45,852 nucleotides of DNA from Clostridiales bacterium (GTDB taxonomy: Bacteria > Bacillota > Clostridia > Christensenellales > Aristaeellaceae), in contig JAAYDR010000026.1 of NCBI GenBank assembly GCA_012729115.1, positions 1-45,852 on the forward strand. The letters run 5' to 3'. The translations under genes were made by a program, and so were the position numbers. Below the pieces are notes generated by a model. It was not told the origin of the DNA and did not search any database. It was given only the letters and a program-made list of their open reading frames with translations. Positions 11,343 through 45,740 of this stretch are shown piece by piece. Each line of letters opens with the position of its first letter. Position 1 is the stretch's first letter.

Positions 11343-11969
11343 ATGTATAAACGTTTTGGGAAAAGGTCCCTGGATATATTGTTGTCATTGCTGGGGCTGG
11401 TCATTCTCAGTCCCATATTTGCCTTGGCATCACTGGCTGTGAAGCTTTCCTCTCCCGGACCGGTTTTCTTTCGCCAAAAGAGGGTGGGCAAGAACAAGGT
11501 TCCTTTTGAGATCTGGAAGTTTCGTACCATGCGTTTAGATGCCCCCAAGGATGTGCCGACCCATTTGCTGAAAGACGCCGAGCGGTATATTACACCGGTG
11601 GGGAAGGTGCTGCGGGCCACGAGCATCGACGAACTCCCCCAGTTTGCCAATGTTTTTTGGGGACAAATGTCCCTCATCGGCCCTCGGCCTGCCCTGTGGA
11701 ATCAGGACGATCTGGTGGCTCTGCGGGACCAGTACAGGGCCAATGATGTTCTGCCTGGCATGAGCGGGTGGGCTCAGGTGAATGGCCGGGATGAGCTCAG
11801 TCTGGAAAAGAAGGCGAGGCGGGACGGAGAGTATGCCCAGAACATCAGCTTCCGCCTGGACATGAAGTGCTTGTTGCTGACCTTTGTAAAGGTTTTTAAC
11901 CGGGAAGGCATCGCTGAAGGCAAGGAAGGAAAGCATTATTCTGTCCTCCGTGTGGAGGGGAAGAAATGA
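11343..11969 (+). CDS. Polyprenyl-phosphate phosphoglycosyl transferase (first locus)
   Basis: A 208-residue monotopic phosphoglycosyl transferase (PglC/WcaJ-core type). It attaches the first sugar phosphate to undecaprenyl phosphate at the inner face of the membrane. It has the N-terminal reentrant helix (KRSLDILLSLLGLVILSPIF), GPVFFRQKRVGK, FEIWKFRTMR, TSIDELPQFANV, SLIGPRPA and GMSGWAQVNGRD. It starts after GTAGGAGGAACGGG. It heads a block of six overlapping or adjoining genes that includes glycosyltransferases and WecB. The sugar used is unknown. Confidence 0.92.
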   Translation: MYKRFGKRSLDILLSLLGLVILSPIFALASLAVKLSSPGPVFFRQKRVGKNKVPFEIWKFRTMRLDAPKDVPTHLLKDAERYITPVGKVLRATSIDELPQFANVFWGQMSLIGPRPALWNQDDLVALRDQYRANDVLPGMSGWAQVNGRDELSLEKKARRDGEYAQNISFRLDMKCLLLTFVKVFNREGIAEGKEGKHYSVLRVEGKK

Positions 11970-27837: not shown

Positions 27838-27890
27838 ACTTTAAGTGAATGAACTGCTTGGCAAAGCTGAGAACGAAAGAGGGCGAAGCC

Positions 27891-29441
27891 ATGGAGCCCA
27901 GGCTTAACACCAATGGAAGCGCCGGCCATGACTTATGGAAGGTAGCCCTGTATTGTTTGCTGATTGCAACCGGATGCCTCATGATCTGCTCAAAATCCTC
28001 CCCGGCATATCCCATCAACGATTGGTCTGATGCGAATATTTTTTTCTCTATGGGCAAGGGAATGGCTCATGGAAAAGTGATTTACAGGGATCTGTATGAT
28101 CACAAAGGCCCATTGCTGTACGGTCTGCATGCCTTATGCTACATGATTTCTCCCCTGTCCTTCCTGGGGGTGTGGCTGCTTGAGATACTGTGCTTCACTG
28201 CCTTTTTGGTGAGCCTGTACCAATTTATGAGACTATACAAGTTGGGAAGAGTGGCATTGATGATTCTGCCCCTGGCGGCTGCTCTGGTGGCGGCTTCCAA
28301 TTCCTTCCAGCAAGGAGATAGTGCTGAAGAATTATGTCTGCCTCTGGTCTCCATCCCATTGTATTGGCTGATGCGGTACCTGAAAACAAAAGCCCCGGGC
28401 CCCATGCCCGCGCATACGGCCCTCCTCAGCGGACTGCTGTGCGGTTGTGTGTTATGGATCAAGTTCACCCTGTTGGGGTTTCATATGGCCTGGATTCTAA
28501 TTGTCTTTGGCATTCAGGTTAGAAATAGGCAATGGAAGTCGGCATGGTCTTGTATCCTTTGGTATGTGGCTGGGATCGCACTGGCTACAGTGCCATGGGT
28601 GTTCTATTTTGGGTTTCATGGTGCATTGGAAGATTGGCTTGGAACCTACTTTTACCATAACCTTTTCCTCTATTCAGGCAGCGAAACGGCAGGCTTTGTA
28701 AGCCGGCTCAGGGCTATGGTCCGTTCCTTTTTGACCTGGGGATTGGAGAATTGGGGATACCTGGGCTTGACGGTTTTGGGTTTGGTATGGCATAGCAATC
28801 TTTGGACCGGTAGGCGTAGAGCTCAAATTTCCAATAGTGCTCCCTGGGAGCGCAGTTCTCTCTGGTTGGGCCTGGGGCTGCTCAGCCTGGGGGTGTTCAT
28901 CGGTGGAAAGAGCTACCCCTATTATGGGCTGATTCTCTATGGGATGATGGGAAACGCGCTGGTTCTTCCCGCCCTGTGGACAGAGAGAATTCTGAGCATA
29001 AAATTGACGTGCAAGTCCCTGGTGTCCAGCTTATGCGCGGGGTTGACGGTGCTTTCCTTTGCGCTGTGCCTGCTGGGCAGCCAGAACGTTAAGACATCAT
29101 TCTTGAAGCCCAGGGACAGCACCATGCAATACCAGTTGGCCCAGGTCATCGTCCAGACTCCGGGCGCTACGATGCTGAACTATGGCTTTATGGATGCGGG
29201 CTTTTACACAGCCTCAGGCATTGTGCCCCATGTAAAGTACTTTCACCAAACCAATGTGCCCTTGGACGAAATGCTTCGGGAACAGATTCGCTATATAGAC
29301 GAAGGCCTGAGTACATACGTGGTGACCCGTGGGAAACAGCCAAAAACGATTTTGGAGAAATACGAACGGGTGATGACAGCGGAAAGCCCGCCGGACTTCT
29401 GGTACGACCATGTAGAGTTGTATCGCCTCAAGGAGAGATAA
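27891..29441 (+). CDS. Multi-pass membrane glycosyltransferase (GT39/ArnT-like, GT-C type)
   Basis: 516 residues with about 10-11 predicted membrane helices and a C-terminal soluble tail. After the first helix comes PINDWSDANIFFSMGKGMAHG, then IYRDLYDHKGPLLYGLHAL. The Asp-rich loop and the DHKGP motif are typical of lipid-linked-sugar-using GT-C enzymes of the ArnT/PMT type. These take sugar from a polyprenyl phosphate donor on the outer face of the membrane. I chose ATG 27891 after AGAGGGCG. An in-frame ATG at 27849 has no ribosome binding site and sits close to the predicted transcription start. The acceptor is unknown; it may be the wall polymers or surface proteins encoded around it. Confidence 0.78.
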   Translation: MEPRLNTNGSAGHDLWKVALYCLLIATGCLMICSKSSPAYPINDWSDANIFFSMGKGMAHGKVIYRDLYDHKGPLLYGLHALCYMISPLSFLGVWLLEILCFTAFLVSLYQFMRLYKLGRVALMILPLAAALVAASNSFQQGDSAEELCLPLVSIPLYWLMRYLKTKAPGPMPAHTALLSGLLCGCVLWIKFTLLGFHMAWILIVFGIQVRNRQWKSAWSCILWYVAGIALATVPWVFYFGFHGALEDWLGTYFYHNLFLYSGSETAGFVSRLRAMVRSFLTWGLENWGYLGLTVLGLVWHSNLWTGRRRAQISNSAPWERSSLWLGLGLLSLGVFIGGKSYPYYGLILYGMMGNALVLPALWTERILSIKLTCKSLVSSLCAGLTVLSFALCLLGSQNVKTSFLKPRDSTMQYQLAQVIVQTPGATMLNYGFMDAGFYTASGIVPHVKYFHQTNVPLDEMLREQIRYIDEGLSTYVVTRGKQPKTILEKYERVMTAESPPDFWYDHVELYRLKER

Positions 29442-30694: not shown

Positions 30695-33600
30695 TCAGGG
30701 GGCCGTATAAGCCAACCCATACAGGCCGTTGCCATGGGTAACAAGGCTGGCAATCAGGTAGGGCTTGGTGCGCAGAATGGCTGTGTAGGGGACGGCTTGG
30801 GTTTCTGAGAAAGTATAGGGCACAACCAACAGGCTGTCAAGGGGATTGGCAATGTCTGAGATGAAGCTCAAGGAACATCCCCTTTGATGGAGGACCTGCT
30901 CCAGGGTCTGGCGAGCCAGTTCCAGGCCTGTGGATGTTGGTTCTACCTGGCCTTCCAGGGTGGCGGAGGCTTCCTGAAGCGCTTTTATCTGGGCGGTTGC
31001 TTGCGGTTCTTTGTCGGTAGGCTCTTTTTCCTGCCTTTGTCCGATGACAGTCTCCACCACATCCGGGTCGTTGATCTGGGTTTCCCCACCGTGATAAGTC
31101 AGGACCGAGCTTACGTCCATCAGAAGTCTGGCGGAAGACACAGCCCGAGTAATGTCCACATGCCGGGAACCGCTGACAACCTCCATGCGCACGTGAGCCA
31201 CAGGCGCTTGCAATGCAACACTATCCCAGGCGGCGGATGCGCTTTCAAGCAGGGGATCGATGCCTGTGACCGGGCGCAGAGTGATACAAAACCGGGCACC
31301 CAGTCGGGAAAGGCCGGCATCGGTCATCAGAGCGCGAACGGCCTCTCCCTGAAGTTCCGCCAGTTCCAAATAACCATAGATTCCCTGCAGACCGAATGCA
31401 ATATGGGTGATTCGCTGACGTCGGAAAGCTTCAAGATGGGCATAGGTGAGGGTCAGGGTACGGCCTGTGACCACGGGATTACCATCCATATCGGTAACGT
31501 AGCCCCCGTCCTCATTCAACTCCGGCTCCGCCTGCAGGATGAGCAGCGCAGCATCGTACCCGGAGCGCAACCGCAGGGAAGCGGTGAAGGGCCGGGTCTG
31601 ACCGGAATTCGCCTCAAAGATCATCTCTCCGTAGCCAACGCCGCTGATGTTCAGCTTTTTAACCGTGGCGATGATTAAATCAAGCTTGCTGCCGTCGCTG
31701 AAAACCAGCACGTCGTGAACCGGATCGATGCGGGCTAAAGGATCAAAGGGCATGTAGTGGTGTGGGCTGTAATCAATGAAAAACATAGGGGCCAAGGGGT
31801 CGATCTTCAGCCTGTAGTAGGGCTTGGCATCCAGAGCATCCGTCAGATAGGGATAGTTGCCCGGCTTTTCCCCTGGCATTCGGGTCAGTTTGCCGGTTAC
31901 CTCATCTCCCGGGAGCATCGGCGCAGGGTCATAGGTGTAAAAAAACGTGGAGGGGTCCGGCTCACCCACGACTTTGCGGGCCTCCTCAGGGAAGATCAGT
32001 ACTGTGATAGGCAGAATGTCCACGAGAACATCTGTTACTCCCGGCAGATAATCCGGATGGCCGGGCAGGATGCTGACCTTGGCTGTATATCGCCCCACCT
32101 CATGGGGGGCATTTTCCAGCCGGGTAGCGCCGGAAAACCAGGTGAGGGATGCCCCCTTGGGGATCAGTCCGGAGGCAAAGATGAACTCCCTGCCGTTGTA
32201 GGTTTTGTACTGAGGAGCCAGGGTGAAGGGGCTTCGAACTCCTGAGGCTGTAAAGGAATACTGGTCACTGAAGGCAAAGGCGTCGGCTGTCTCGGCAGTG
32301 AGGGTTACATTGGCCTGGGCACAGGCAAAAACCCGGAAGATTACCTGATCCCCGTCCCGAAGGCCCGGGATGTTGCACTCTCCCAAATGCTGCAGAACTC
32401 TGCCTGCATCCACCCGGTAGGTGTCAGGCATGCTGCTCCCAGGACGGTTTATATAGTATTGCACGCCGGAGGTGGCGGCGCCTGGGGCGCTATAGGTAAC
32501 GGCTCCATTGGGCGCGATCGTGACGCCTGTAATGTCGGGCAGGGCATTCGGGTCACCGGAGCCGCGCACCAGCACGGTCGCGTAGGTGTTGGCATCAGAG
32601 AGCACCACGGCATCCATACTGCTCAGGGGAGCGCTGCGCCATAGATAGATGAATCCGTATTTGTTTGTTGTCATGGAGAAGGGAGTATTCTTTCCCAGCT
32701 TCAGCACAATCTTGGTATTGGGAAGGGCAGCTCCGTGGGAATTGGAGATGAAAAGCACCGTCGGCTGCAATTTGGTGCCCGCGATGGATCCAGGGGCCGG
32801 TAATGTCAGATTGGCAGGGCTTTTGATCCGAGTAGACACCAGGCCGCCTGAGGACTTGGCGATGTGGTCGACAAGCAGCGCACCCGCCCCTTGCAATACC
32901 AGAGCCGAACCCTGGCCCAGGTTGATGCCGCCGCCTAGGATGCTGCTTTGCTCCAGAACCAGGGTAATATTTGCATTGTTGCCAATGGTCAGGGAGGATG
33001 AACTGTCCACCCCGGCAAAGGTCACGGTGGCCTTCACTCTGGGGCCAACGATTATTGCACCGCTGGTAGGGCCGCTGGTGGTGATTTTGTAGGTTCCATT
33101 CCTGTCAATGGTCAGCCCTGCATCAGTCAGGACCAGAGATTGCTCACCCTGAGGGATGGTTTTAAGGGTCAAAGCTGTGCCGGCAATGGTTACAGAATAG
33201 GACTTGCCGGAAGGGGGGGCCTTGGGCAGCAGCGCCGTGGAAGGAGTCTCGACGGAATAGGCTAGAGCCAAGGGTCTGCCATCCACAGTGGCCTTGGTAT
33301 CTGTGGTGAGTTCACCGGGAACAGCCAGAGAATACCATCCGTTCAGGGCTCCGCTTTGGGTCCCGAAGGAAAGGGTTAATCCGGAGGACACAGACAGGCT
33401 GCCTATGTTCAGACTTACCACGGACAGGCTGCCGCTACCGGTAAGGCTGGCCCCGGCTGTGCCCTCCAGGGCATGGAGATTATTTCTGCCGCTCAGGTGA
33501 AGGGTACCGCCTTGGGAGAACTCCACATTCACCTCAGGAGTTGCGGCACTGATACCGTTCATCATCAGGGTCACATTGGAGGCATCCACCCGGAGGGTTT

Positions 33601-34747
33601 GGGGGATGGCAGTGCCACTTTGAGCAATGGTATACGTGTGTCCCTCCAGCGCTGTAAAGATGTCATTCAGGGCCAGATCATAGTCATCCGAAGGGGAGGG
33701 GACATCCTCCCGGGTGGTTATTTCCAGAATGGTACCATTCATCAGGGATTCATAGACCTGACCATCCTCAAGGGGGAGAAGCCAGACATGCGCTTTACCG
33801 TCCGGGCAAGGCTGGTTGTAGGGGTAGACACTGCCATTGACCATAACCCCGGTGGAACCGGGGGCGGAAAAAGTGAAGACCTGGGTCCCGTTTGCGCTGA
33901 TGATGTCTGCGGGCAAGGATACACTGCCACCGACAACCGTCACGTCCCGGGTATTGGGTCCCAAAGAACCCACTGTGAGACTTCCCTCCCCCAGCAGTTT
34001 AAGGGCTGCATCATCGGGCAGGGACAGGGCCCCAATGGTACTTTCATGAAAGGTGATTTCCGCAATGCATCGGGCTCCCAGCTGGAGAGTGCCAATCTGA
34101 ACATTGTTCAGGTGTAGCGCCACCAAGCAGTTCTCGCTAACGATCAGCTTGCATCCTGGGCCCCCTCCGGTGAGGGTGTAGGTACCGCTGCGGTACAGGG
34201 TGTAACTGCCGGTGACCGGCAAAATGATGACCGTAGGTATGCTGGCATCCATTATGCTGACGGTTTCCGCTACATCCGCCGAAGGCATGGGAGAAGGCTC
34301 GCAGTATACCAGCATCCATTCTCCCAGGGGACATAGGGCTGTAGCGACCCCACGCTCATCCACGAGGATGTGAGGACAGTCCGTCAGTTCGCAAATGGGT
34401 GGTGGAGGTGTGGCCGTCTCTTCCAAGGGGAGTGGGGTATCTGAGATGGAAGGCGGTGTATCCGCGGGCAATAGAGGTGCATCCGATATTGGAGGCGTGG
34501 CATCAGGTGCCGGGGTTCCGGTGTCCGCCAAGGTGCCGTGGGTGCCTTCCGGTGAGGGAGTGACGAGTTCTTCCGCTGGAAAAGAGCTGACGGCAGGGGT
34601 CTCGCTTTCGCTGACAAGCACTCCTTCAGACTCGCAAGAGGGTGCCGGGATAGGCGTATCTTCGGCCAAGCCTGTGACAGTAAAAACGAGTATAAGACAC
34701 AAAGCCATGGAAAGCAGCCTGTGCGCTGTGCGTTGTGAAAGCTTCAT
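30695..34747 (-). CDS. Giant secreted surface protein with beta-helix-like repeats and MBG-like domains
   Basis: 1350 residues. A signal peptide (1-28, cleaved near TGLA) is followed by a Pro/Thr/Ser-rich stretch (30-117) and a Cys-containing segment (CELTDC to LVYC). Three divergent repeats follow, resembling Cthe_2159-type carbohydrate-binding beta-helices: near 187-262 (SGTYTLTGG), 368-445 (EGHTYTIAQ) and 548-628 (NGTYKITTSG). Two MBG-like domains lie at about 845-915 and 913-992. The C-terminal 350 residues are unlike anything I recognise. There is no LPXTG sortase motif, SLH domain or C-terminal membrane helix, so how it stays on the cell is unclear. It starts after GGAGGAGG and is followed by the LCP gene in one unit. 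A role in adhesion or matrix binding is inferred. Confidence 0.75.
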   Translation of the reverse strand: MKLSQRTAHRLLSMALCLILVFTVTGLAEDTPIPAPSCESEGVLVSESETPAVSSFPAEELVTPSPEGTHGTLADTGTPAPDATPPISDAPLLPADTPPSISDTPLPLEETATPPPPICELTDCPHILVDERGVATALCPLGEWMLVYCEPSPMPSADVAETVSIMDASIPTVIILPVTGSYTLYRSGTYTLTGGGPGCKLIVSENCLVALHLNNVQIGTLQLGARCIAEITFHESTIGALSLPDDAALKLLGEGSLTVGSLGPNTRDVTVVGGSVSLPADIISANGTQVFTFSAPGSTGVMVNGSVYPYNQPCPDGKAHVWLLPLEDGQVYESLMNGTILEITTREDVPSPSDDYDLALNDIFTALEGHTYTIAQSGTAIPQTLRVDASNVTLMMNGISAATPEVNVEFSQGGTLHLSGRNNLHALEGTAGASLTGSGSLSVVSLNIGSLSVSSGLTLSFGTQSGALNGWYSLAVPGELTTDTKATVDGRPLALAYSVETPSTALLPKAPPSGKSYSVTIAGTALTLKTIPQGEQSLVLTDAGLTIDRNGTYKITTSGPTSGAIIVGPRVKATVTFAGVDSSSSLTIGNNANITLVLEQSSILGGGINLGQGSALVLQGAGALLVDHIAKSSGGLVSTRIKSPANLTLPAPGSIAGTKLQPTVLFISNSHGAALPNTKIVLKLGKNTPFSMTTNKYGFIYLWRSAPLSSMDAVVLSDANTYATVLVRGSGDPNALPDITGVTIAPNGAVTYSAPGAATSGVQYYINRPGSSMPDTYRVDAGRVLQHLGECNIPGLRDGDQVIFRVFACAQANVTLTAETADAFAFSDQYSFTASGVRSPFTLAPQYKTYNGREFIFASGLIPKGASLTWFSGATRLENAPHEVGRYTAKVSILPGHPDYLPGVTDVLVDILPITVLIFPEEARKVVGEPDPSTFFYTYDPAPMLPGDEVTGKLTRMPGEKPGNYPYLTDALDAKPYYRLKIDPLAPMFFIDYSPHHYMPFDPLARIDPVHDVLVFSDGSKLDLIIATVKKLNISGVGYGEMIFEANSGQTRPFTASLRLRSGYDAALLILQAEPELNEDGGYVTDMDGNPVVTGRTLTLTYAHLEAFRRQRITHIAFGLQGIYGYLELAELQGEAVRALMTDAGLSRLGARFCITLRPVTGIDPLLESASAAWDSVALQAPVAHVRMEVVSGSRHVDITRAVSSARLLMDVSSVLTYHGGETQINDPDVVETVIGQRQEKEPTDKEPQATAQIKALQEASATLEGQVEPTSTGLELARQTLEQVLHQRGCSLSFISDIANPLDSLLVVPYTFSETQAVPYTAILRTKPYLIASLVTHGNGLYGLAYTAP

Positions 34748-36109: not shown

Positions 36110-37588
36110 ATGCAAGAACTGACAATCAAGGATATCCTGAAAATCCTTAGAAAAAGATTGTTAATGATCGGTGTTTTCTGCATCCTGGTGACAGTGACCA
36201 CCGGTGTTTATTATCGATACCAGCCTGATGAGTATACGGCTCAAGCGACTTTGCACGTGCTGCCCAAATATACGGATGACACAGGTCGGCTCATATATGA
36301 TGCATATGAGGGAGAGAAGTATGCTGCAGATTTTAAGGAACTGTTGAAAACGCAAATCATTATGAAAAAAGCAGCTGATCGCATGGGGATTACACAGGAG
36401 GAATTATCTGACACATCCATTGAGATCAGTTCTGTTCCCGAAACGCGAATTCTTACCATTTCAGTTACAAGCCCCAATAATGTGACGAGCATGAAGGTAG
36501 CCAATACCGTGAGCCATGTGTTCAAAGAATACATCCAGGAAGAAATGATGATTAATGCAGTGACCATCGCATCGGAAGCAATCATGCCATCGGCACCATC
36601 AGGTCCGCCCCGTATACGAAACACGTTATTGGTCGGTGTGGTTGGCTTCGTTTTGGCATTTGGAATTGTGCTGACGATAGAAATGCTTAATACCACCCTC
36701 CGCTCATCGGAGGTATTGGAGAGTGCTCTGGGCCTTCCGGTGCTGGCCAATATACAAAACTACAGAAAGGATATCAAACGGTTTCTACGCAAGGGAAGAC
36801 CTGATCAAATGCTTTCCATGGCTGTCTCCACCATTACAAAGGAGAATGTACAGGTGATGGTAACAAACCTGCAGTTTGCTGCGATTACACAACCTGCGCA
36901 AACGCTTCTTGTAACCTCAAGTATTGCCCATGAGGGTAAAAGTTCCCTACTGCTGCTTCTCGCTGAGGGACTTGCTGATCTGGGTAAACATGTGCTTGTG
37001 GTGGATATGGATACTCGAAATCCAAGTATTGGACGGTACCTGGGGTCGCGAGGCCATAATGACCTGGTTGATTATCTGGCAGGCCATTCTCGGCTTGAGG
37101 ACATCATATGTAAAACAGCTCACCCTGGTATTCAATTTATCGATTCTCATCATCGCCTTACGTCTGTTTCACAAATGGTTAGTTTTGAAAGGTTTGATCA
37201 ATTTCTCGAAATTGTGAAGCAGTTTTATGATGTGATACTCTTTGATACGCCCCCCTTGAGCCTGTATATAGACGCGGCGGCATTGGCTAATAAAATGGAT
37301 GCATCCTTATTGGTGGTGGGTTGTGGCATGGGAGAAAGAACAGTCATTGGTGAAGTGGTGGAGCAACTGCATAGAGCAAATGCCAATATTTTAGGTGTGG
37401 TTCTCAATTTTGTTGATCAACCCATCGCACGGCGTTATTGTTACAGAAAGATACATGACGATGGCTCAGATAAGCAGAATCTGGCTGATACCGATCAAGA
37501 ACTGCACAGGAGATTAAGCGTTGCTGTTGAGAGACGAAAACAGGTAGTATCATCATGTAAACATCCTTCCCGATCCTGGCAGCAATAA
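36110..37588 (+). CDS. Fused Wzz-domain / BY-type tyrosine kinase (polysaccharide co-polymerase)
   Basis: 492 residues. The Wzz part has two membrane helices (about 17-35 and 171-192) around a short extracytoplasmic region that ends with the Pro-rich MPSAPSGPPRIRN. The kinase part has Walker A SSIAHEGKSS (270-279), Walker A' LVVDMD (about 296-301) and Walker B DVILFDTPP (374-382). Such proteins set chain length and export of capsule or exopolysaccharide. Most Bacillota split the two parts into separate genes (CpsC and CpsD); here they are fused. The C-terminal tail holds only two Tyr (RYCYRK) instead of the usual Tyr cluster, and the P-loop lacks the common PGEGKS form. Autophosphorylation may be reduced or absent. 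Confidence 0.85.
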   Translation: MQELTIKDILKILRKRLLMIGVFCILVTVTTGVYYRYQPDEYTAQATLHVLPKYTDDTGRLIYDAYEGEKYAADFKELLKTQIIMKKAADRMGITQEELSDTSIEISSVPETRILTISVTSPNNVTSMKVANTVSHVFKEYIQEEMMINAVTIASEAIMPSAPSGPPRIRNTLLVGVVGFVLAFGIVLTIEMLNTTLRSSEVLESALGLPVLANIQNYRKDIKRFLRKGRPDQMLSMAVSTITKENVQVMVTNLQFAAITQPAQTLLVTSSIAHEGKSSLLLLLAEGLADLGKHVLVVDMDTRNPSIGRYLGSRGHNDLVDYLAGHSRLEDIICKTAHPGIQFIDSHHRLTSVSQMVSFERFDQFLEIVKQFYDVILFDTPPLSLYIDAAALANKMDASLLVVGCGMGERTVIGEVVEQLHRANANILGVVLNFVDQPIARRYCYRKIHDDGSDKQNLADTDQELHRRLSVAVERRKQVVSSCKHPSRSWQQ

Positions 37589-37730
37589 TCAGATTCACAA
37601 ATGAAGGAACATACGCCACAGCGGGCCGGCCAGTACGGTATGTCTGACGGAAGCGATGGCGCACATAGGACTCTTCTCCTTTCTTCTCCCAATATGGGAC
37701 AAGAAGGGCGAAGCTATGTGCCGATGCAAT

Positions 37731-37782
37731 GTACCCGCATGGATCACAGTACAAAGGATGAAAATCATACGCGGGGGTTTTT
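37731..37782 (+). terminator. Possible attenuator upstream of the NusG paralogue
   Basis: CCCGC (37731-37735) and GCGGG (37771-37775), extended by an imperfect ATGGAT/ATCAT pairing, run into GGTTTTT (37776-37782). The loop is long (about 25-35 bases), so this is a weak call. It lies in the 285-base gap after the kinase gene. Confidence 0.3.
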
Positions 37783-37791
37783 CTGATAAAA

Positions 37792-37864
37792 CCTCACTTG
37801 GCAATACATTCAACACAGAATACCCAAAATACAAATACTGTCATCACGCATATTGCCAAGGAGG
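37792..37864 (+). promoter_or_regulatory. Shine-Dalgarno-sequestering stem before the NusG paralogue
   Basis: CCTC, bulged A, CTTGGCAATA (37792-37806) is complementary to TATTGCCAAGGAGG (37851-37864) over 14 base pairs with one bulge. The 3' arm contains the entire AAGGAGG ribosome binding site (37858-37864), nine bases before the GTG start. The 44-base loop (37807-37850) is A/C-rich and looks unstructured. In the folded state the gene should be poorly translated. As DNA it is also an inverted repeat flanking a short AT-rich segment. Confidence 0.75.
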
Positions 37865-37873
37865 TCAGTTAAT

Positions 37874-38401
37874 GTGGCTTGTTGTCAATGTTTTTGCATC
37901 CAATGCACCACCGGAAGAGAGTGGAGTGTCGCTCGTCAGATTCAGCAAGAAACGGGGCTTATTGCATTGGTCCCAACCCTTGTCAGGGTGGAGTGGAAGG
38001 GTAAGGTGGCAAATCGCAAGGAGCAGACGCTTTTCCCTGGCTATATTTTTCTGTATGCCGATGATAAGGCTCTGCCTCCGCTCACGAGAGTTCATCATAT
38101 GTGCAGGACGCTGGTTTATGGCCCGGGGCAGCGTCAGCTTTATGGCCGCGATGCTGAGATTGCCCGGTGGATTTTCAAGCATGGCGGCGTAATCCGTGAG
38201 TCCAGGGCACTTCGGGAAGGTGATCACATTGTGGTCATCGACGGCCCTATGAAGGATTTTGACGGTATCATCAAAAGCGTCAATAAGCAGCGACAACGGG
38301 CCAACATTGAGTTCACGTTTGAGGGCATCACACGCAGTATCTGGATGGCTTTTACTTGGGTCACATCTGCTGAAGAAGCGCAGTTCCGCATGGCAGAGTA
38401 A
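37874..38401 (+). CDS. NusG-paralogue transcription antiterminator (LoaP/UpxY type)
   Basis: 175 residues. The NGN domain begins CFCIQCTTGREWSVARQIQQ and contains EQTLFPGYIFLYAD. The KOW domain begins LREGDHIVVIDGPMKDFDG and ends with FEGITRSIWM. It is not the housekeeping NusG, because it lies within a polysaccharide locus like LoaP of Bacillus and UpxY of Bacteroides. Such paralogues bind RNA polymerase, often through a leader RNA hairpin, and suppress termination along long operons. In this frame the start nearest the ribosome binding site is GTG 37874. ATG 37872 in another frame is equally well placed and opens a 107-codon frame to 38192 with no family similarity. A small frameshift near the N-terminus is a possible alternative. 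Confidence 0.85.
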   Translation: MACCQCFCIQCTTGREWSVARQIQQETGLIALVPTLVRVEWKGKVANRKEQTLFPGYIFLYADDKALPPLTRVHHMCRTLVYGPGQRQLYGRDAEIARWIFKHGGVIRESRALREGDHIVVIDGPMKDFDGIIKSVNKQRQRANIEFTFEGITRSIWMAFTWVTSAEEAQFRMAE

Positions 38402-38515: not shown

Positions 38516-39214
38516 ATGGAGTGGGAGACCACCAATGCTAAAGCCATGCCTGAAATCACAGCAGTAGTGTGTGATAATTCGTATACCCCGCCCCTGGGCA
38601 ATCGCTCCCTCGTCTATTTGGCGGGCAAGCGTGTGTTTGATTTTTGTGCCGCCCTCCTCGCGCTCCTTCTACTCTCACCGGTGCTTTTGGGAGTGGTAGC
38701 AGCCATCATGATTGATGACCCGCACGCAGGCCCCATTTATGTATCCAAGCGGGTAGGTAAAAACCTGAAGATTTTTCATATGTTCAAGTTCCGCAGCATG
38801 TACAAGGATGCCGATCAACGCATCAATGATCTCTTGTCGCAAAACGAGATGTCGGGCCCTATCTTCAAGATAAAAAACGATCCACGCATAACCCGTATCG
38901 GCAGGATTATCAGGAGTACAAGTATCGATGAGCTGCCCCAGCTGCTCAATGTTATAGCGGGAAAGATGAGCTTTGTAGGGCCAAGGCCCACCGTGCCCTA
39001 CGAAGTTGAGCAGTATACCCAGGAGCAAAAACAGCGCTTCGTCGTGACCCCGGGTCTGACCTGCTTTTACCAGGTTGCCCGCGACCGATACGACTTTGAC
39101 TTTGAAACATGCTTTGAGCTGGATATGAAATATATTCAGGAACAAAGTTTTTTGCTGGATATGATGCTGATCCTAAAAACCGTCCGCATCGTTTTGGGAG
39201 GGCTAAGCCATTAA
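38516..39214 (+). CDS. Polyprenyl-phosphate phosphoglycosyl transferase (second locus)
   Basis: 232 residues: a monotopic phosphoglycosyl transferase with an N-terminal extension of about 35 residues. It then has AGKRVFDFCAALLALLLLSPVL, PIYVSKRVGKN, FHMFKFRSMYKDAD, STSIDELPQLLNV and MSFVGPRPTVPYEVEQY. The extra Asp-rich segment DADQRINDLL and FKIKNDPRITRIG mark the WbaP/exopolysaccharide-type subgroup. It starts the lipid-linked unit by moving a sugar phosphate to undecaprenyl phosphate. It is distinct from the transferase at 11343, so the cell probably makes at least two polymers. TTGGAGG precedes the ATG. Confidence 0.92.
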   Translation: MEWETTNAKAMPEITAVVCDNSYTPPLGNRSLVYLAGKRVFDFCAALLALLLLSPVLLGVVAAIMIDDPHAGPIYVSKRVGKNLKIFHMFKFRSMYKDADQRINDLLSQNEMSGPIFKIKNDPRITRIGRIIRSTSIDELPQLLNVIAGKMSFVGPRPTVPYEVEQYTQEQKQRFVVTPGLTCFYQVARDRYDFDFETCFELDMKYIQEQSFLLDMMLILKTVRIVLGGLSH

Positions 39215-39276: not shown

Positions 39277-40422
39277 ATGGACAAAGTGATTAACGCCGCA
39301 ATTATAGGCTACGGCTATATGGGCCGGTTCCACCAGCGCAAACTCGCGGGAACGAAAGGGGTAATTCTCACAGGGGTCTTTGATACCGACCCTAACAGAT
39401 CGGATGAGGCCACCGTCGAGGGATTGACAGTCTACGAAACCGCAGAAGACCTGTTCAATGATCCCGCCATCGATCTGGTGCTCATTTGCACGCCCAACGA
39501 CAGCCATGCGGCCTACGCCATCGCAGCCCTTGCAAAGGGCAAGCATGTGATGTGTGAAAAGCCCGTCACCATGAACGCCAAAGAGTTGGAGGACGTGATA
39601 TGCGCTGCCGTAGCAAGCGGCAGGAAGTTCACCACACATCAGAATCGACGATGGGACAGGGATTTTTTAGCTGTCAAGAAGGTGGCGGAAAGCAGGAACA
39701 TTGGCTCTCCCACGACCATCGAATCAAAGGTGTTTGGCCAGAGGGGCGTGTGCTTCGGTTGGCGGGCTTTGCCTGAGCACGGCGGGGGTATGCTGATGGA
39801 CTGGGGCGTGCACTTGATCGATCAAGCGCTTTTGATGCTGGAAGGTCACAGGGTCATCAGCGTGCGTGCCAGACTGATGAGCATCTTGACCCCGGCGGTA
39901 GACGACTATTTTGAGCTTTCTCTGCGCTTTGACAACCAAATGGAGTACCACATCACGGTGGGGACCTTCGCTCTTCAGCCGCAGCCCCGGTGGTTTATGC
40001 ACGGCGACCGCGGTACATTGAAGATCGATACTTTTGACCCCCATACCGCGAGTATGAAGCGCATCAAGCAGGATGTACGAGGATTTGACAGTGTGTTTGA
40101 AAAGGAACACCTTGGGCCCAGCCGGACCATGGCACCATTGAAGCCCGAATTTATCGAAGAATTGGTCATGCCTATCACCGAGGATTTGTCCCATGAATAT
40201 CATCGCAACCTCGTCGCAGCCATTAACGGCCAAGAAGAACTGCACGTCCGATGGGACCAGATGCTCCATGTGATGCACATCATTGACCTGGCGAAAGAAT
40301 CATCCAAAAAGAATACGGTACTGCTAACCCAGAACCTATACAAGGATGGCGGATATGAAAAACTGTTTGGTGGGCTATACGGGATTCGTAGGTCAAAACC
40401 TGCATCTAAAAGGGCAGTATGA
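39277..40422 (+). CDS. Gfo/Idh/MocA family oxidoreductase
   Basis: 381 residues. The Rossmann part has AAIIGYGYMGRFHQRKLAG, LVLICTPNDSHA and HVMCEKPVTMNAKEL (the EKP motif), and the C-terminal sheet domain has GGGMLMDWGVHLID. Family members oxidise or reduce sugars or nucleotide sugars with NAD(P). In sugar-polymer loci they often make 3-keto or acidic intermediates, but the substrate here is unknown. The 3' end overlaps the next gene by about 70 bases, an unusually long overlap that suggests coupled expression. Confidence 0.87.
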   Translation: MDKVINAAIIGYGYMGRFHQRKLAGTKGVILTGVFDTDPNRSDEATVEGLTVYETAEDLFNDPAIDLVLICTPNDSHAAYAIAALAKGKHVMCEKPVTMNAKELEDVICAAVASGRKFTTHQNRRWDRDFLAVKKVAESRNIGSPTTIESKVFGQRGVCFGWRALPEHGGGMLMDWGVHLIDQALLMLEGHRVISVRARLMSILTPAVDDYFELSLRFDNQMEYHITVGTFALQPQPRWFMHGDRGTLKIDTFDPHTASMKRIKQDVRGFDSVFEKEHLGPSRTMAPLKPEFIEELVMPITEDLSHEYHRNLVAAINGQEELHVRWDQMLHVMHIIDLAKESSKKNTVLLTQNLYKDGGYEKLFGGLYGIRRSKPASKRAV

Positions 40423-41329
40423 TGGGCTTTTCAACAGCAGAAACATTAGCGACGCCTATGACAGCAAGCCCGATTTGCTTGTTTATGCGGGTGTCGAAGG
40501 TACCAAGTACCTGGCAAATCATGAGCCTGAAAAGGATCTGGAAGCCAAAGTAGAGGCATTGGAGAATATCCGCAGGATTAGCCCCAAGCGGCTGGTGTTG
40601 ATTTCCAGCATCGATGTTTACCGCGATCCCGTAATGGTGGATGAAGATGTGATCAGCGATACAGATAACATGCAACCCTATGGACTGAACCGCTTCAAGC
40701 TTGAGCAATGGGTGCGCATGGAATTTCCGGAGGCGCTGTTCGTCCGCCTTCCGGGTATTTATGGGGTGGGGCTTAAAAAGAATTTCGTGTTTGATCTCAT
40801 CCACCTTGTCCCTCCCATGCTGAGCACGGAGAAGCTCCGGGTGATAGTAGCCCAGGATCCATTTTTGGGGCCATTCTACCAGAATCAGGGCAATGGATAC
40901 TGGAAGATGATCTGCCCGCAAAAGGCCGATTATTTGAAGCTCCGTGAGCGTTTTAAAAAGATCGGCTTTAGTGCGCTTCATTTTACGGACAGCCGAGGCA
41001 TTTATCAGTATTATCCTCTGGCGAAGCTGCAGTGGCATCTGGAGATGGCGCTGGCAGCCAATCTGAAAGTTGTTAACATTGCCACGGAGCCTTTTGCTAT
41101 TTCAGAGATGGTCCGGTACATCGATGGCTGCGGATTTGAGAATCTGCTGGATAAGCCCATTGTCCACTATGATGTACGTACCAGGCATAACGACGTATTT
41201 GGCGGAAGCGGCGGATACATTATGACAAAACAGGAAGTTTTCACAGACCTGATGGCATACATCAGCTCGGAGAGAGAGAAGCTGGCGGTCGACGATGAAG
41301 AGAAGGTGACAGAGGCCCTGGTGGTTTGA
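40355..41329 (+). CDS. SDR-family NAD-dependent sugar epimerase/dehydratase-like protein
   Basis: 324 residues starting MKNCLVGYTGFVGQNLHL (nucleotide-binding GYTGFVG). It has LVYAGVEGTKYL, the Ser of ISSIDVYRDP and VRLPGIYG. The usual YxxxK active site reads YGLNR, so the Lys is Arg. The C-terminal half (MICPQKADYLKLRERFKKIG and on) is not one I recognise. I chose ATG 40355, 8 bases after CAAGG; ATG 40346 overlaps that site. It overlaps the oxidoreductase gene by 68 bases. It may be a sugar-modifying enzyme with altered catalysis or a non-catalytic homologue. Confidence 0.75.
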   Translation: MKNCLVGYTGFVGQNLHLKGQYDGLFNSRNISDAYDSKPDLLVYAGVEGTKYLANHEPEKDLEAKVEALENIRRISPKRLVLISSIDVYRDPVMVDEDVISDTDNMQPYGLNRFKLEQWVRMEFPEALFVRLPGIYGVGLKKNFVFDLIHLVPPMLSTEKLRVIVAQDPFLGPFYQNQGNGYWKMICPQKADYLKLRERFKKIGFSALHFTDSRGIYQYYPLAKLQWHLEMALAANLKVVNIATEPFAISEMVRYIDGCGFENLLDKPIVHYDVRTRHNDVFGGSGGYIMTKQEVFTDLMAYISSEREKLAVDDEEKVTEALVV

Positions 41330-41404
41330 AGCGTCCTGGTTTTTGGCCGGCAAAGCAGGCTGTTTGCCGAACGGATCCCACTTTGGTGTCAGGAGGGGAA
41401 TGCA

Positions 41405-42226
41405 TTGAAAGTTGTTTTATTGGCCGGCGGATTTGGAACCCGCATCTCAGAAGAATCACAGTTTAAGCCAAAACCGATGATTGAGATCGGCGGCATGCCG
41501 ATTCTCTGGCATATCCTTAAAATATACTCCTACTATGGATTCAACGAGTTCATCATCTGCGCCGGGTACAAGCAGGAGATCATCAAAGAATGGTTCTCCA
41601 ACTACTTTTTAAACACCTGCGATGTCACCTTTGACTTTTCGCGGGGCAACAAGCTCATCGTGCACAACAAGTATGCCGAGCCTTGGAAGGTTACTGTTGT
41701 TGATACAGGTCAAAACACCATGACAGGCGGGCGTTTGAAGCGTGTCAAGGAACATATAGGCGGAAATACCTTTCTGATGACCTATGGTGACGGCCTGAGC
41801 GATGTAAATATCCCCGCTTCCCTGGCCTTTCACAGGCATCACGGAAAACTGGCCACCATGACAGCCATCCAGCCGGACAGCCGGTATGGTGTGATCGACT
41901 TTCTGGAGAACCAGGTACTGGCGTTCCGGGAAAAAAGCCAGGCCGATGCCAGCTGGGTCAATGCCGGTTTTATGATATTGGAGCCGGAAGTGTTGGACTA
42001 TATAGAAGATGACGGGGTAACGTTTGAGCGCGATCCCATGGAGCACATTGCCCGGGACGGGCAGTTGATGTGCTTCAAGCACGATGGTTTCTGGCAGTGC
42101 ATGGACACCATGAGAGACAGGGAAAAACTGGAGAAGCTCTGGGCGGAGGGCAGTGCGCCCTGGAAGCTGTGGGATAAGGAAACCCGTGCCTGCCCACGGG
42201 TTGAGAGAGTCGCTGCCGGAATTTAG
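41405..42226 (+). CDS. rfbF: Glucose-1-phosphate cytidylyltransferase
   Basis: 273 residues beginning (M)KVVLLAGGFGTRISEESQFK with PKPMIEIGGMPILWHI (nucleotide-binding loop), then GYKQEIIKEWF, MTYGDGLSDV, FREK, WVNAGFM and FWQCMDTMRDREKLE. It makes CDP-glucose from CTP and glucose-1-phosphate, the first step to CDP-3,6-dideoxy sugars. The start is TTG 41405 after AGGAGGGGAATGCA. It is the first of the rfbF-G-H set, separated from rfbG by a GT8 gene. Confidence 0.94.
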   Translation: MKVVLLAGGFGTRISEESQFKPKPMIEIGGMPILWHILKIYSYYGFNEFIICAGYKQEIIKEWFSNYFLNTCDVTFDFSRGNKLIVHNKYAEPWKVTVVDTGQNTMTGGRLKRVKEHIGGNTFLMTYGDGLSDVNIPASLAFHRHHGKLATMTAIQPDSRYGVIDFLENQVLAFREKSQADASWVNAGFMILEPEVLDYIEDDGVTFERDPMEHIARDGQLMCFKHDGFWQCMDTMRDREKLEKLWAEGSAPWKLWDKETRACPRVERVAAGI

Positions 42227-42256
42227 GCAGATAATCCGCACGAAAGGTGTGTTCAA

Positions 42257-43321
42257 ATGATCATCGTGTACTCCAGCAGCGATTCCTATGCCGAGATCGC
42301 AGGGATCTCCATCCTTTCACTATTTGAAAACAACAAGGACGCGGATGAGATCATCATCTATATTGTGGATAATGGCATCGCGGCCGATAACAAAAGAAAG
42401 CTGTTGGGCGTGGCATCCCAATTCGGTCGTATGCTCCATTTTCTGACACCCCCTGATATCCAGGCGATGGTGGGTATTCAGTTGACCATTGCCAAGTGGA
42501 ATATCAGCACCTATTACCGCCTGTTCCTGTGCTCAATCCTCCCGCGGCAAATCGAGCGCGTCATCTTCCTGGACGGGGATACCATCGTTCGTGGCAGCCT
42601 TGGGCCCCTTTGGGATCTGGATCTTGGCGATTGTTCTGTCGCCGCGGTGGATGATACCCGGTCAGACTACTATAAGCTGGAACTGGGTTTGAAAGCGTCG
42701 GATACATATACCAACAGCGGAGTAATGGTGATTGACATGACAAAGTGGCGGCAGGAGGACGTCCAGCAGCAGTTCATTGATGAGTTGATGAAAGGCAGGG
42801 GAAACATCCCCTATGTAGATCAGGGCGTATTGAACGCCGTGCTGTCAAAGCAAAAGAAGGTGATGGTGCTGCCACCCAAGTACAACGCCATGACATTCCT
42901 GTTCTATTTCAGCTATAGCGATCTTCTCAGATTCAGAAGACCCAGTTCTCCTTATTTGACGGAAGCAGAGTACAATGAGGCTGTAATAAGCCCAATTGTT
43001 GTGCATTTCTTTCCCTGCTTCATGGCGGGTACAAGGCCCTGGCATGAAAATGATACTCATAAATTTACCCCCGAATACTGCGCATACAAAGCGCTCTCTC
43101 CATGGAAGGAGATGCCCTATCGTCCGGATAACCGAAAAACCTATCAAAAAGCAGGCCTCTGGGTGTGCAAGCACATGCCCAAAGGCCTGATGCTGTTTTG
43201 CGTTTCTCTTCTTCATGCCAGAGTAATGCCGATGATGCGGATAATCAAGAAACAATGGGAAACCCTGTCCCGTATAAAAACAAGCATATCCATTCACGCC
43301 GCGGGAGAGCAACATGTTTGA
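42257..43321 (+). CDS. Glycosyltransferase family 8
   Basis: 354 residues. It is a GT-A enzyme with retaining GT8 features: VYSSSDSYAEIAGISILSLFE at the N-terminus, STYYRLFLCSILP, the metal-binding DxD in VIFLDGDTIVRG, TYTNSGVMVIDM and YVDQGVLNAVLS, plus the late HFF region. It probably adds a hexose to the growing lipid-linked unit in the cytoplasm. It is inserted between rfbF and rfbG and overlaps rfbG by 8 bases, so it belongs to the same polymer pathway. The C-terminal 60 residues are basic. Confidence 0.88.
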   Translation: MIIVYSSSDSYAEIAGISILSLFENNKDADEIIIYIVDNGIAADNKRKLLGVASQFGRMLHFLTPPDIQAMVGIQLTIAKWNISTYYRLFLCSILPRQIERVIFLDGDTIVRGSLGPLWDLDLGDCSVAAVDDTRSDYYKLELGLKASDTYTNSGVMVIDMTKWRQEDVQQQFIDELMKGRGNIPYVDQGVLNAVLSKQKKVMVLPPKYNAMTFLFYFSYSDLLRFRRPSSPYLTEAEYNEAVISPIVVHFFPCFMAGTRPWHENDTHKFTPEYCAYKALSPWKEMPYRPDNRKTYQKAGLWVCKHMPKGLMLFCVSLLHARVMPMMRIIKKQWETLSRIKTSISIHAAGEQHV

Positions 43322-44366
43322 TATTGATTTTTATCGTGGAAAGCGTGTGTTCGTTACCGGCCATACAGGATTTAAGGGCTCCTGGCTGTGCAAATTGCTT
43401 GCCAATGCGGGCGCAGTCACGACTGGCTATTCTTTGAATCCGCCCACAACGCCATCCCTGTTTACCATTGCTGGAATTGGGAACGATGTGACATCGGTCA
43501 TAGGGGATATACGTGATTACGTGTCCCTGAAAAAGGCGTTTGACCACGCAAAACCGCAGATTGTTTTTCATCTGGCTGCTCAGCCCATTGTCCGGGACAG
43601 CTATCAATGCCCTGTTTACACCTATGAAACCAATGTGATGGGGACTGTCAATATTCTGGAATGTATCCGGATGGGCAATAGTGTCAAGTCCTTCCTCAAC
43701 GTGACCACGGATAAGGTTTACCTCAATAGGGAATGGGAAAGAGGCTATCGGGAAGATGATGGGTTGGATGGGTATGATCCTTACTCCAATTCAAAATCAT
43801 GTTCCGAATTGGTGACGCACGCCTACAAAAACAGCTATTTCAGTGACGGGCATGTCTCCATTTCTACGGTACGCGCAGGAAATGTGATAGGAGGCGGCGA
43901 TTTTGCCAAAGACCGAATTATCCCTGATTGCATACGCACTGTGATGCGCCATGAGGACATCAAAATACGCAATCCGTATTCCATCCGGCCATACCAGCAT
44001 GTTTTGGAACCGCTGCTGGCCTATCTGATGATATCCGCCCGGCAGTATGATGATCCCACGCTGGGTGGTTACTACAACATTGGCCCTGATGATTCCGATT
44101 GCTGCCAGACAGGTCAGCTTGCAGACCTGTTTGTCCATGCGTGGGGCGATGGCGTCAGGTGGGTCCAAGAGATGAACGCAGGCCCTCACGAGGCAAATTT
44201 TCTGAAGATTGACTGTACAAAGGTCAAGTCCACCTTTGGATGGAAGCCCCGCTGGAATCTGGAGACAGCCGTTAAGATGGTTGTGGAGTGGAGCAAATGC
44301 TGGATGAGGGGTGGAGATACCAGAGATTGCATGGATTTGCAGATCCAACGGTACATGCAGGGGTAA
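43314..44366 (+). CDS. rfbG: CDP-glucose 4,6-dehydratase
   Basis: 350 residues, an extended SDR close to RfbG: FYRGKRVFVTGHTGFKGSWL, FHLAAQPIVRDSY, NVMGTVNILE, VTTDKVYLN, the active-site YSNSK, VRAGNVIGGGDFAKDRIIPD and YQHVLEPLLAYL. It converts CDP-glucose to CDP-4-keto-6-deoxyglucose with bound NAD+. The ATG follows GGGAGAGCAAC and overlaps the GT8 gene by 8 bases. Confidence 0.95.
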   Translation: MFDIDFYRGKRVFVTGHTGFKGSWLCKLLANAGAVTTGYSLNPPTTPSLFTIAGIGNDVTSVIGDIRDYVSLKKAFDHAKPQIVFHLAAQPIVRDSYQCPVYTYETNVMGTVNILECIRMGNSVKSFLNVTTDKVYLNREWERGYREDDGLDGYDPYSNSKSCSELVTHAYKNSYFSDGHVSISTVRAGNVIGGGDFAKDRIIPDCIRTVMRHEDIKIRNPYSIRPYQHVLEPLLAYLMISARQYDDPTLGGYYNIGPDDSDCCQTGQLADLFVHAWGDGVRWVQEMNAGPHEANFLKIDCTKVKSTFGWKPRWNLETAVKMVVEWSKCWMRGGDTRDCMDLQIQRYMQG

Positions 44367-44393
44367 ACAGCGTTGATGAACAGTGAGGATTGA

Positions 44394-45740
44394 ATGATTG
44401 TAGAGTGTACATCTGAAAAAGAAGCCAGAGAACGGATCCTTAGGGAAGTGAGGGCGTATTGCGCTCAATTCCATCCCCTGAAGACATATAGTCAGACGAA
44501 CCGTATACCCTATGCTTCCCGCGTGTATGATGGCGACGAGATGTGTAGCCTTGTGGACAGTGCTCTGGATTTCTGGCTGACGGCCGGCAGGTATGTGGAC
44601 ACATTTGAAGCCGAATTCGCCAAATACCTGGGCATAAGATACGTAAGCACCGTAAACTCCGGGTCTTCGGCCAACCTGCTGGCTTTCATGGCTCTCACCT
44701 CCCCATTGCTTGGCGACAGGGCGATCAAACGGGGCGATGAGATCATTACGGTGGCCGCGGGGTTTCCCACAACGATCGCCCCCTGCATTCAGTTCGGTGC
44801 GGTACCGGTATTCGTTGATGTAACGATCCCACAGTACAACATCGATACCACCCAGCTGGAATCCGCAGTTTCCAAGAAGACAAAGGCCGTCATACTGGCG
44901 CATACGTTGGGCAATCCATTTAACGTGGCGGCTGTAAAAGCAATCTGTGATACATATGGGCTTTGGCTGATTGAGGACAACTGCGATGCACTTGGATCTG
45001 AATATGTGCTGGATGGAGCTAGGAAATATACAGGTACGTTTGGAGACATTGGCACCAGCAGTTTTTACCCCCCCCATCACATGACGATGGGTGAAGGCGG
45101 CGCAGTATATACAAGCAATCCTTTACTGCACCGGATTATCCGATCCATGAGAGATTGGGGCCGCGACTGCGTCTGTCCCTCCGGACATGACAATCAATGC
45201 GGGCATCGGTTTGACAAGCAATACGGCGAGTTGCCGGCAGGCTACGATCATAAGTATGTATACTCCCACTTTGGATACAACCTGAAGATCACTGATATGC
45301 AGGCGGCCATCGGATGCGCGCAGCTAAAAAAGCTTCCCATCTTTGCGCAGCGCAGAAGGCAACATTTCACAAGGCTCAAAGAAGCGCTTGCGCCGGTATC
45401 GGACAGGCTGATACTGCCTGAGCCCACCGAAAACGCAGACCCTTGCTGGTTCGGGTTCCTTATCACCTGCAAGGACCAAATTGATAAATCCGGTATGGTC
45501 CGATACATTGAATCCCAAGGGATCCAAACTCGGATGCTGTTTGCCGGAAATCTGCTTAAGCAGCCATGCTTTACGGATCTGCGCAGGTCCGGCGGGAGTT
45601 TCCATACCATCGGCGATCTGCCGGTTACCAACAGGATTATGAACCGCACATTTTGGGTAGGCGTCTTTCCCGGCCTGACTGACGATGTAATCGACTATAT
45701 GGCTGCAACGATCAATGACGCCGCAATCCTGCAAGGATAA
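44394..45740 (+). CDS. rfbH: CDP-4-keto-6-deoxyglucose 3-dehydrase (E1)
   Basis: 448 residues, aminotransferase fold. The usual PLP Lys is replaced by His in SFYPPHHMTMGEGG, the mark of the 3-dehydrase that uses PMP without an internal aldimine. The Fe-S ligands are present: Cys in EDNCDALG, then DCVCPSGHDNQC, matching the C-x57-C-x-C-x7-C pattern of the [2Fe-2S] E1 enzyme. It removes the C3 hydroxyl of CDP-4-keto-6-deoxyglucose together with a flavin/Fe-S reductase (RfbI/AscD), which is not in the window. It lies 27 bases after rfbG. Confidence 0.96.
   Translation: MIVECTSEKEARERILREVRAYCAQFHPLKTYSQTNRIPYASRVYDGDEMCSLVDSALDFWLTAGRYVDTFEAEFAKYLGIRYVSTVNSGSSANLLAFMALTSPLLGDRAIKRGDEIITVAAGFPTTIAPCIQFGAVPVFVDVTIPQYNIDTTQLESAVSKKTKAVILAHTLGNPFNVAAVKAICDTYGLWLIEDNCDALGSEYVLDGARKYTGTFGDIGTSSFYPPHHMTMGEGGAVYTSNPLLHRIIRSMRDWGRDCVCPSGHDNQCGHRFDKQYGELPAGYDHKYVYSHFGYNLKITDMQAAIGCAQLKKLPIFAQRRRQHFTRLKEALAPVSDRLILPEPTENADPCWFGFLITCKDQIDKSGMVRYIESQGIQTRMLFAGNLLKQPCFTDLRRSGGSFHTIGDLPVTNRIMNRTFWVGVFPGLTDDVIDYMAATINDAAILQG

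Follow-up and report, generated by a model that had tools for sequence, protein, structure and literature searches.

The loaP-like gene and its neighbourhood

The window, by which we mean the whole stretch of 45,852 nucleotides analysed here, carries on its forward strand a GTG-started gene for a specialised NusG paralogue (37874..38401, + strand), assigned from Pfam, NCBIfam, a profile search and the ORF translation. The encoded protein matches the Pfam domains NusG (PF02357) and KOW (PF00467), both over the cut-off, and its best NCBIfam profile is LoaP (NF033641) with 87.1 bits, under the cut-off of 125; the other profiles score 43.0 (NusG), 36.5 (UpxY, cut-off 100) and 19.4 (RfaH, cut-off 144.5). 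The preliminary description, made from the letters of the DNA, had named a NusG paralogue and was right in this. Searched against solved structures, a profile of 25 relatives gave as best match 8f5g_A (2e-22), which is listed as NusG and which we take to be LoaP, and reached the RfaH structure with 1.6e-6 over profile positions 3-76 only. The best matches to the window protein in other genomes are ~35% identical. Its own genome holds one other LoaP-like gene (L002, contig C69), 32% identical. Single-protein scans of genome contigs and viral contigs found no relative.

Judged by the Pfam domains of its neighbours, the gene adjoins a polysaccharide operon, as is expected of LoaP, whose genes adjoin polysaccharide or secondary-metabolite operons. 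Upstream of the leader lies a Wzz / tyrosine-autokinase gene (36110..37588, + strand; Pfam Wzz and AAA_31, NCBIfam eps_fam over the cut-off). The next gene of the presumed operon encodes a sugar transferase (38516..39214, + strand; Pfam Bac_transf, 1.5e-60), followed by further sugar-biosynthesis genes (39277..45740, + strand) that Pfam assigns to an oxidoreductase, an RmlD-like protein (under the Pfam cut-off), a nucleotidyl transferase, a glycosyl transferase 8, a protein of the GDP-mannose dehydratase type and a DegT aminotransferase. A second bacterial sugar transferase is encoded in a separate polysaccharide region of the window (11343-11969, + strand), and only the one at 38516-39214 (+ strand) adjoins the loaP-like gene. 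On the minus strand, 30695-34747 encodes a repetitive protein of 1350 residues with a weak MBG-domain match only, next to a LytR-CpsA-Psr gene.

The in-frame start codon of the loaP-like gene is GTG 37874, and an overlapping out-of-frame ATG (37872) sits nearer the Shine-Dalgarno (SD) sequence. This ATG would open a frame of 107 codons into the loaP-like gene; the ORF, 37656-38192, spans the whole leader.

A stem across the Shine-Dalgarno sequence

The SD sequence GGAGG of the loaP-like gene (37860..37864, + strand) lies with all its bases paired in a stem that spans 37792..37864 (+ strand) and was recovered from the sequence, the fold, an inverted-repeat search and the duplex energy. Its arms, CTTGGCAATA at 37797-37806 and TATTGCCAAG at 37851-37860, form a perfect inverted repeat of 10 bp, 44 nt apart, which is extended by the pairing of CCTC (37792-37795) with GAGG (37861-37864) beyond a bulged A (A37796). 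Altogether 14 bp join 37792-37806 to 37851-37864 around an A/C-rich loop of 44 nt. The stem with its single bulge, the masking of the whole SD and the 44-base loop had been described beforehand exactly as we find them.

The fold of 37786-37870 reaches -22.1 kcal/mol (z -5.56; 0 of 200 shuffles as good), and the duplex of the SD arm, -21.0 kcal/mol, was not reached in 5000 dinucleotide-preserving shuffles of the sequence upstream, the lowest of which gave -17.9. The statement that such a stem is hard to credit to chance holds against these shuffles and less firmly against natural start sites: among 366 SD-bearing ORF starts from the window and 99 related loci, which are mechanical ORFs and many perhaps not genes, two match or exceed the duplex in strength, with four or more SD bases paired, which makes it rare and not unique. 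As a window contains dozens of genes, a stem of this strength could have arisen by chance. In addition, the longer fold of 37740-37920 is ordinary (z -0.19; 88 of 200 shuffles as good), partly because the CCTC of the stem can pair upstream instead. This competing hairpin (37774..37795, + strand; 37774-37781 with 37788-37795) has -8.7 kcal/mol alone and is present in the minimum-energy fold of 37755-37880.

The preliminary description had read the stem as a switch belonging to this type of gene, and had proposed that homologous loci with the same gene and no conserved pairing would speak against that reading. Such loci are what we find. The sequence pattern of the stem occurs in one of 308 genomes of the window's family, and a search with the leader DNA matched only the window's own genome among 60 genomes. 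Both 8-base arms are confined to the window among 196 loaP-like leaders (100 from the family, window included, 16 from the class and 80 from titled records, some of them short or repeated). Moreover, masking of the SD, taken as at least four SD bases in the best upstream duplex, is seen at 28% of 82 loaP-like starts as compared with 29% of 284 other ORF starts. We therefore rejected the stem as a conserved switch of loaP leaders; it is a real fold private to the window's lineage, seen in the window's genome only.

As the homologues are at most ~35% identical, a switch private to this lineage is still to be weighed, in which the loaP-like gene is not translated before a protein, a small RNA, a ligand or warmth has opened the stem. 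The perfect 14-bp pairing exactly on the SD, unmatched in 5000 shuffles, speaks for a main switch of this kind, and the open A/C-rich loop could act as a ribosome standby site. We nevertheless regard it as doubtful, given a sequence found in a single family genome, masking that is no commoner before loaP-like genes, an ordinary longer fold and a leader that belongs to no Rfam family: at the gathering score Rfam has no match in the window, and with a lax threshold only two microRNA models appear, far below their cut-offs. The leader thus shares with known SD-masking switches (thermometers, riboswitches, protein-bound leaders) the stem across the SD and differs from them in having neither an Rfam family nor conserved pairing. 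That the stem is a chance or neutral fold comes close to an even chance, in our estimate. The two equally strong stems among the scanned starts, the dozens of genes in each window, the lack of a second example in 308 family genomes and 196 leaders and the competing pairing all favour such an origin, against which stand the shuffles and the local z of -5.56. The stem may also serve as an added translational gate. The perfect 10-bp repeats (37797-37806 and 37851-37860) had further raised the thought of a short invertible segment, which we find barely credible; the spacer of 44 bp is very short, and no recombinase is present among the 15 window proteins, a subset of the genes, that were run against Pfam.

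A hairpin with an ops-like core upstream of the stem

About 85 bases upstream of the SD stem the leader contains a second structure, a hairpin of a conserved type (37661..37721, + strand), recognised from its fold and from its enrichment before loaP-like genes. Its outer arms are 37661-37668 and 37714-37721, its inner arms 37678-37685 and 37701-37708, and the fold of 37655-37726 reaches -34.4 kcal/mol (z -5.78; 0 of 200 shuffles). On the 3' side of the hairpin, at 37707..37718 (+ strand), lies an ops-like core, GGCGAAGCTATG, identified by its matrix score. With a matrix built without the window, the site at 37703-37720 scores 19.35, the best of the 45.9 kb on both strands. The second-best site, AGAGGGCGAAGCCATGGA at 27878-27895 (+ strand), scores 16.9 and its fold is not unusual (z -1.0); a large membrane-type protein without a Pfam match probably starts there.

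The window element has ACATAG at 37663-37668 together with the outer helix, without conforming to the exact ACATAG pattern that we counted across loci. The apical loop of the main hairpin is AUA, not UNCG, and the ATG within the motif is out of frame with the loaP-like gene. No T-run follows the core. Further downstream a weak terminator-like hairpin (37734..37782, + strand) pairs 37734-37738 with 37771-37775, followed by GG and UUUUU (37778-37782); its fold has -9.6 kcal/mol, and a terminator scan with a loop limit of 8 did not report it.

The element recurs beside loaP-like genes

The leaders of loaP-like genes in the window's family share a recurrent motif, GGCG[AG]AGC, commonly inside GGA[TG]GGCGAAGCTATGCC. 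Of 100 family genes (window included), 46 have the core in sense orientation in the 250 nt before them, as compared with 3 in antisense and none downstream. Scored with the matrix, 47 of the 100 family leaders are over threshold, compared with 3 among 172 other ORF starts of the same loci; since 46 of these 47 leaders also trained the matrix, even though the window was kept out of it, the pattern count is the fairer measure. No site above threshold is found in 53 of the 100 family leaders, in most of the class and named loci, or in the leader of L002, the second LoaP-like gene of the window's genome. Upstream of L002 a CCACC/GGTGG repeat with a T-run after it looks, by eye, like a terminator. 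In the window's own genome the bare pattern GGCGRAGCNNTG turns up often, at 37 places as compared with 6 for a reversed control, so that the core alone is not specific; of these places 30 were scored, none above 18.1.

Beyond the family, the element precedes L158, a gene above the LoaP cut-off in a different family, and four of 14 usable class loci (L184, L185, L187 and L192; the set comprised 16 loci, L190 and L191 being left out for an unexpected translation). In a set of 11 LoaP loci above the cut-off, among which L152 was wrongly placed, the element lies upstream in L158 and downstream in L155 (14.7), with none in the other flanks searched. The class locus L187 and L194, from Acetivibrio alkalicellulosi (record marked UNVERIFIED_CONTAM), have the same element in the same context, and Acetivibrio is probably among the members of the class. 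The 79 usable leaders of titled records (80 loci, L265 being left out for its short leader) gave 11 sites over the matrix threshold, with one in antisense and six downstream, and 13 cores, with one in antisense and five downstream. These counts come from a seeded set and are no blind test, as the records were gathered with an alignment, A2, of whose seven members four were known carriers; two of the 11 matrix hits (L194, L204) repeat sequences already in A2, and a third, L268 (GGCGTAGC), is probably spurious. Titled records with the element include Ruminiclostridium papyrosolvens, R. hungatei, Acetivibrio mesophilus and Paenibacillus apiarius. Rfam, run on 10 loci with elements, recognised only a tRNA.

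The six downstream matrix hits had been meant as a control in the titled set, and we reinterpreted them afterwards as real elements. The downstream copies are on the sense strand, most with a hairpin directly 5' of the core, and they lie between loaP and the next operon, 71-289 nt past the loaP stop, with two in L269 at 941 and 1004 nt. They come from [Clostridium] symbiosum, assemblies of Hespellia and Blautia, other Lachnospiraceae, two Paenibacillus and others. Mechanical ORFs overlap some of them, and seven ORFs that follow downstream elements were assigned by Pfam to a sugar transferase, EpsG, DegT (twice), a beta-lactamase fold and NusG-like proteins (twice). In L228, L241 and L246 the element stands between two NusG-like genes in tandem (of these loci, L228 and L246 were checked with Pfam).

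As the motif combines GGAG with ATG, it could be taken for a conserved translation start region of loaP-like genes and nothing else. Indeed, of the 35 leaders with an ATG at this place, 19 have it in frame with loaP and with no stop in between, and in part of the family the motif may therefore double as a start region. In the other 16 it is not in frame or not open, ATG-less variants exist, several leaders have their sites 156-225 nt upstream, and in other taxa the copies come after loaP. As a general account the start region is largely refuted, and we consider it very improbable. A loading site accounts better for an element that stands before loaP in some clusters and, in others, between loaP and the operon that follows.

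Structure of the element

Across 64 elements (L268, L260 and L233 removed by hand; at least two elements counted twice) the signal for a stem sets in sharply three bases before the core, with z 13.1 at -3 as compared with 2.4 at -2, and extends to about -8. Accordingly, a stem of at least 6 bp ending at -2 to -7 is present in 58% of 67 elements against 14% in shuffles, and control offsets behave like shuffles; the 67 were obtained from 88 hits after removal of identical stretches and filters for score and place. As the matrix spans the last four bases before the core, these tests of hairpin position are not wholly independent of the selection. In 16 AT-rich elements a helix of seven pairs, chosen after the alignment on which it was tested had been viewed, has 83% of its cells paired and 20 doubly changed cells, with none of 500 shuffles as high; slid along the same elements the helix is 34-43% paired. 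Two of five measures do not go beyond shuffles, the counts of doubly changed pairs (196 of 500) and of additional pair types (79 of 500), and RNAalifold on the 16 elements predicted a 3-pair helix within the core and not the hairpin.

Of the 67 elements, 14 have an ACATAG-type block upstream of the core, where 0.9 would be expected, and 16 carry a T-run 3' of the core, against an expectation of 4.8. Among the 13 copies that come after loaP, nine have the T-run (0.5 expected). In L235, L237, L241, L246, L255, L263 and others the T-run comes immediately after the core, as if a pause and a T-tract or terminator were combined. The T-runs raise the possibility that the element is an attenuator, an intrinsic terminator with the conserved core as its 3' arm that is opened by LoaP, and no loading site. 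Some loci have a 5' side complementary to the entire core, as in L263 (-34.4 kcal/mol, z -5.15), which agrees with an attenuator. Outer helices of at least 7 bp are only slightly commoner than in shuffles (28% of 67 elements against 19%), the window core has no T-run behind it, and a terminator would not need the fixed GGCGRAGC sequence. We judge the attenuator unlikely, while leaving it appreciable weight.

GNA triloops are known for their special stability, and GCGRAGC could form a GC-GNA-GC mini-hairpin in non-template DNA. A DNA-fold calculation on the 12-mer lends this mini-hairpin no support, giving 0 kcal/mol for the core of the window type and -0.9 kcal/mol for ops.

Relation to RfaH, LoaP and UpxY systems

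In Escherichia coli, RfaH acts at ops (GGCGGTAG, within JUMPstart) (PMC3438125), an element reported to pause the polymerase via a hairpin in the non-template DNA, with G5 and T6 contacted by RfaH (PMC11001881). The window locus has in common with this system a NusG paralogue, a polysaccharide operon and a 12-nt GGCG..AGC..TG core in the leader, as well as T at -1 and G at +1 of a presumed pause. The layout is also the same, as in the JUMPstart of E. coli strain C a CTGG/CCAG hairpin is followed by one base and then GGCGGTAGCGTG, a hairpin ending just before a 12-nt core. The differences are in the loop, which is GGTA in ops and GAA or GGA, one base shorter, in the Bacillota core, T6 being absent in GGCGAAGCTATG, and in the protein, which stays below the RfaH profile cut-off (19.4 bits against 144.5). 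As nhmmer with the A3 profile gives no match to the E. coli element, and the fold of the E. coli JUMPstart hairpin is itself not unusual (z -1.57), we regard the likeness as one of design and not as shown kinship.

LoaP of Bacillus velezensis is described as recruited by a UNCG RNA hairpin that does not itself pause the polymerase and is helped by a later pause (PMC12691694). Its dfn and mln operons resemble the window in having a leader hairpin followed by a terminator-like structure and a loaP gene that adjoins a biosynthetic operon (PMC12691694), and among NCBIfam profiles the window protein scores best with LoaP. Here too there are differences: the window protein lies below the LoaP cut-off (87.1 bits against 125), the window hairpin has the loop AUA in place of UNCG, and the published hairpin is without a pause, the accessible text of that paper making no mention of a GGCGRAGC core (PMC12691694). 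A scan of the flanks of 11 other LoaP loci for UNCG found none with a stem of at least 5 bp. UpxY of Bacteroides capsule operons, likewise a NusG paralogue, is reported to prevent termination in the leader that precedes its own gene (PMC7819879); the window protein scores 36.5 bits against the UpxY cut-off of 100.

A predicted loading site for a LoaP-type protein

On balance, we hold it somewhat more probable than not that the GGCGAAGCTATG hairpin is a pause and loading site of the LoaP type which directs the protein to its own operon, with antitermination and positive feedback, and that the stem across the SD arose by chance or works as a translational gate. The polymerase would make the hairpin 37661-37721, meet GGCGAAGCTATG, pause and take on the LoaP-like protein, which would read either the non-template DNA core or the RNA hairpin. 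The polymerase modified in this way would pass terminator-like structures, the nearest at 37734-37782, and go on to transcribe the loaP-like gene together with the exopolysaccharide genes that follow, amounting to antitermination with positive feedback. Between the loading site and the start codon the SD stem would keep translation low; as a gate it would make translation dependent on a ribosome brought by the modified polymerase or following it. RfaH is reported to support translation of reporters that lack an SD (PMC7819879), and a masked SD behind an RfaH-like loading site fits the same logic. Pausing, recognition by the protein, antitermination, feedback and the effect on translation are all predictions from the arrangement of the leader. 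The earlier suggestion of a leader under the control of its own protein is indirectly supported by the separate element at 37661-37721, not by the SD stem.

More tentatively, we can imagine that Bacillota have an ops/JUMPstart-like system of their own, a possibility that we do not rate highly. A hairpin at a fixed distance and a GGCGRAGCnnTG DNA mini-hairpin would load LoaP-class paralogues on polysaccharide operons across Clostridia and Paenibacillus, and at the present locus the gene would drive itself, with its SD folded shut and translation achieved through a polymerase-linked ribosome.

In the literature that we consulted, in part as partial texts and with preprints outside its scope, we found no description of GGCGAAGC or of any ops-like element serving LoaP or the NusG paralogues of Gram-positive bacteria, and an earlier description may exist. 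Targeting of operons by LoaP has been described, as far as the available text goes, for one type of UNCG hairpin and two operons of Bacillus velezensis (PMC12691694), and it has been asked if different loop letters in ops-like hairpins bring in different elongation factors (PMC11001881). A recurring element beside loaP-like genes of Clostridia and Paenibacillus, with its hairpin in a fixed place before the GGCGRAGC core, would make both matters testable on short templates, and would serve as a tag for capsule and exopolysaccharide operons under LoaP-like regulators. A long stretch between element and start, as in the window, is also seen in the family leaders L044 (-188), L048 (-199), L116 (-156) and L117 (-254), and L048 has, by eye, a weak fold covering its SD.
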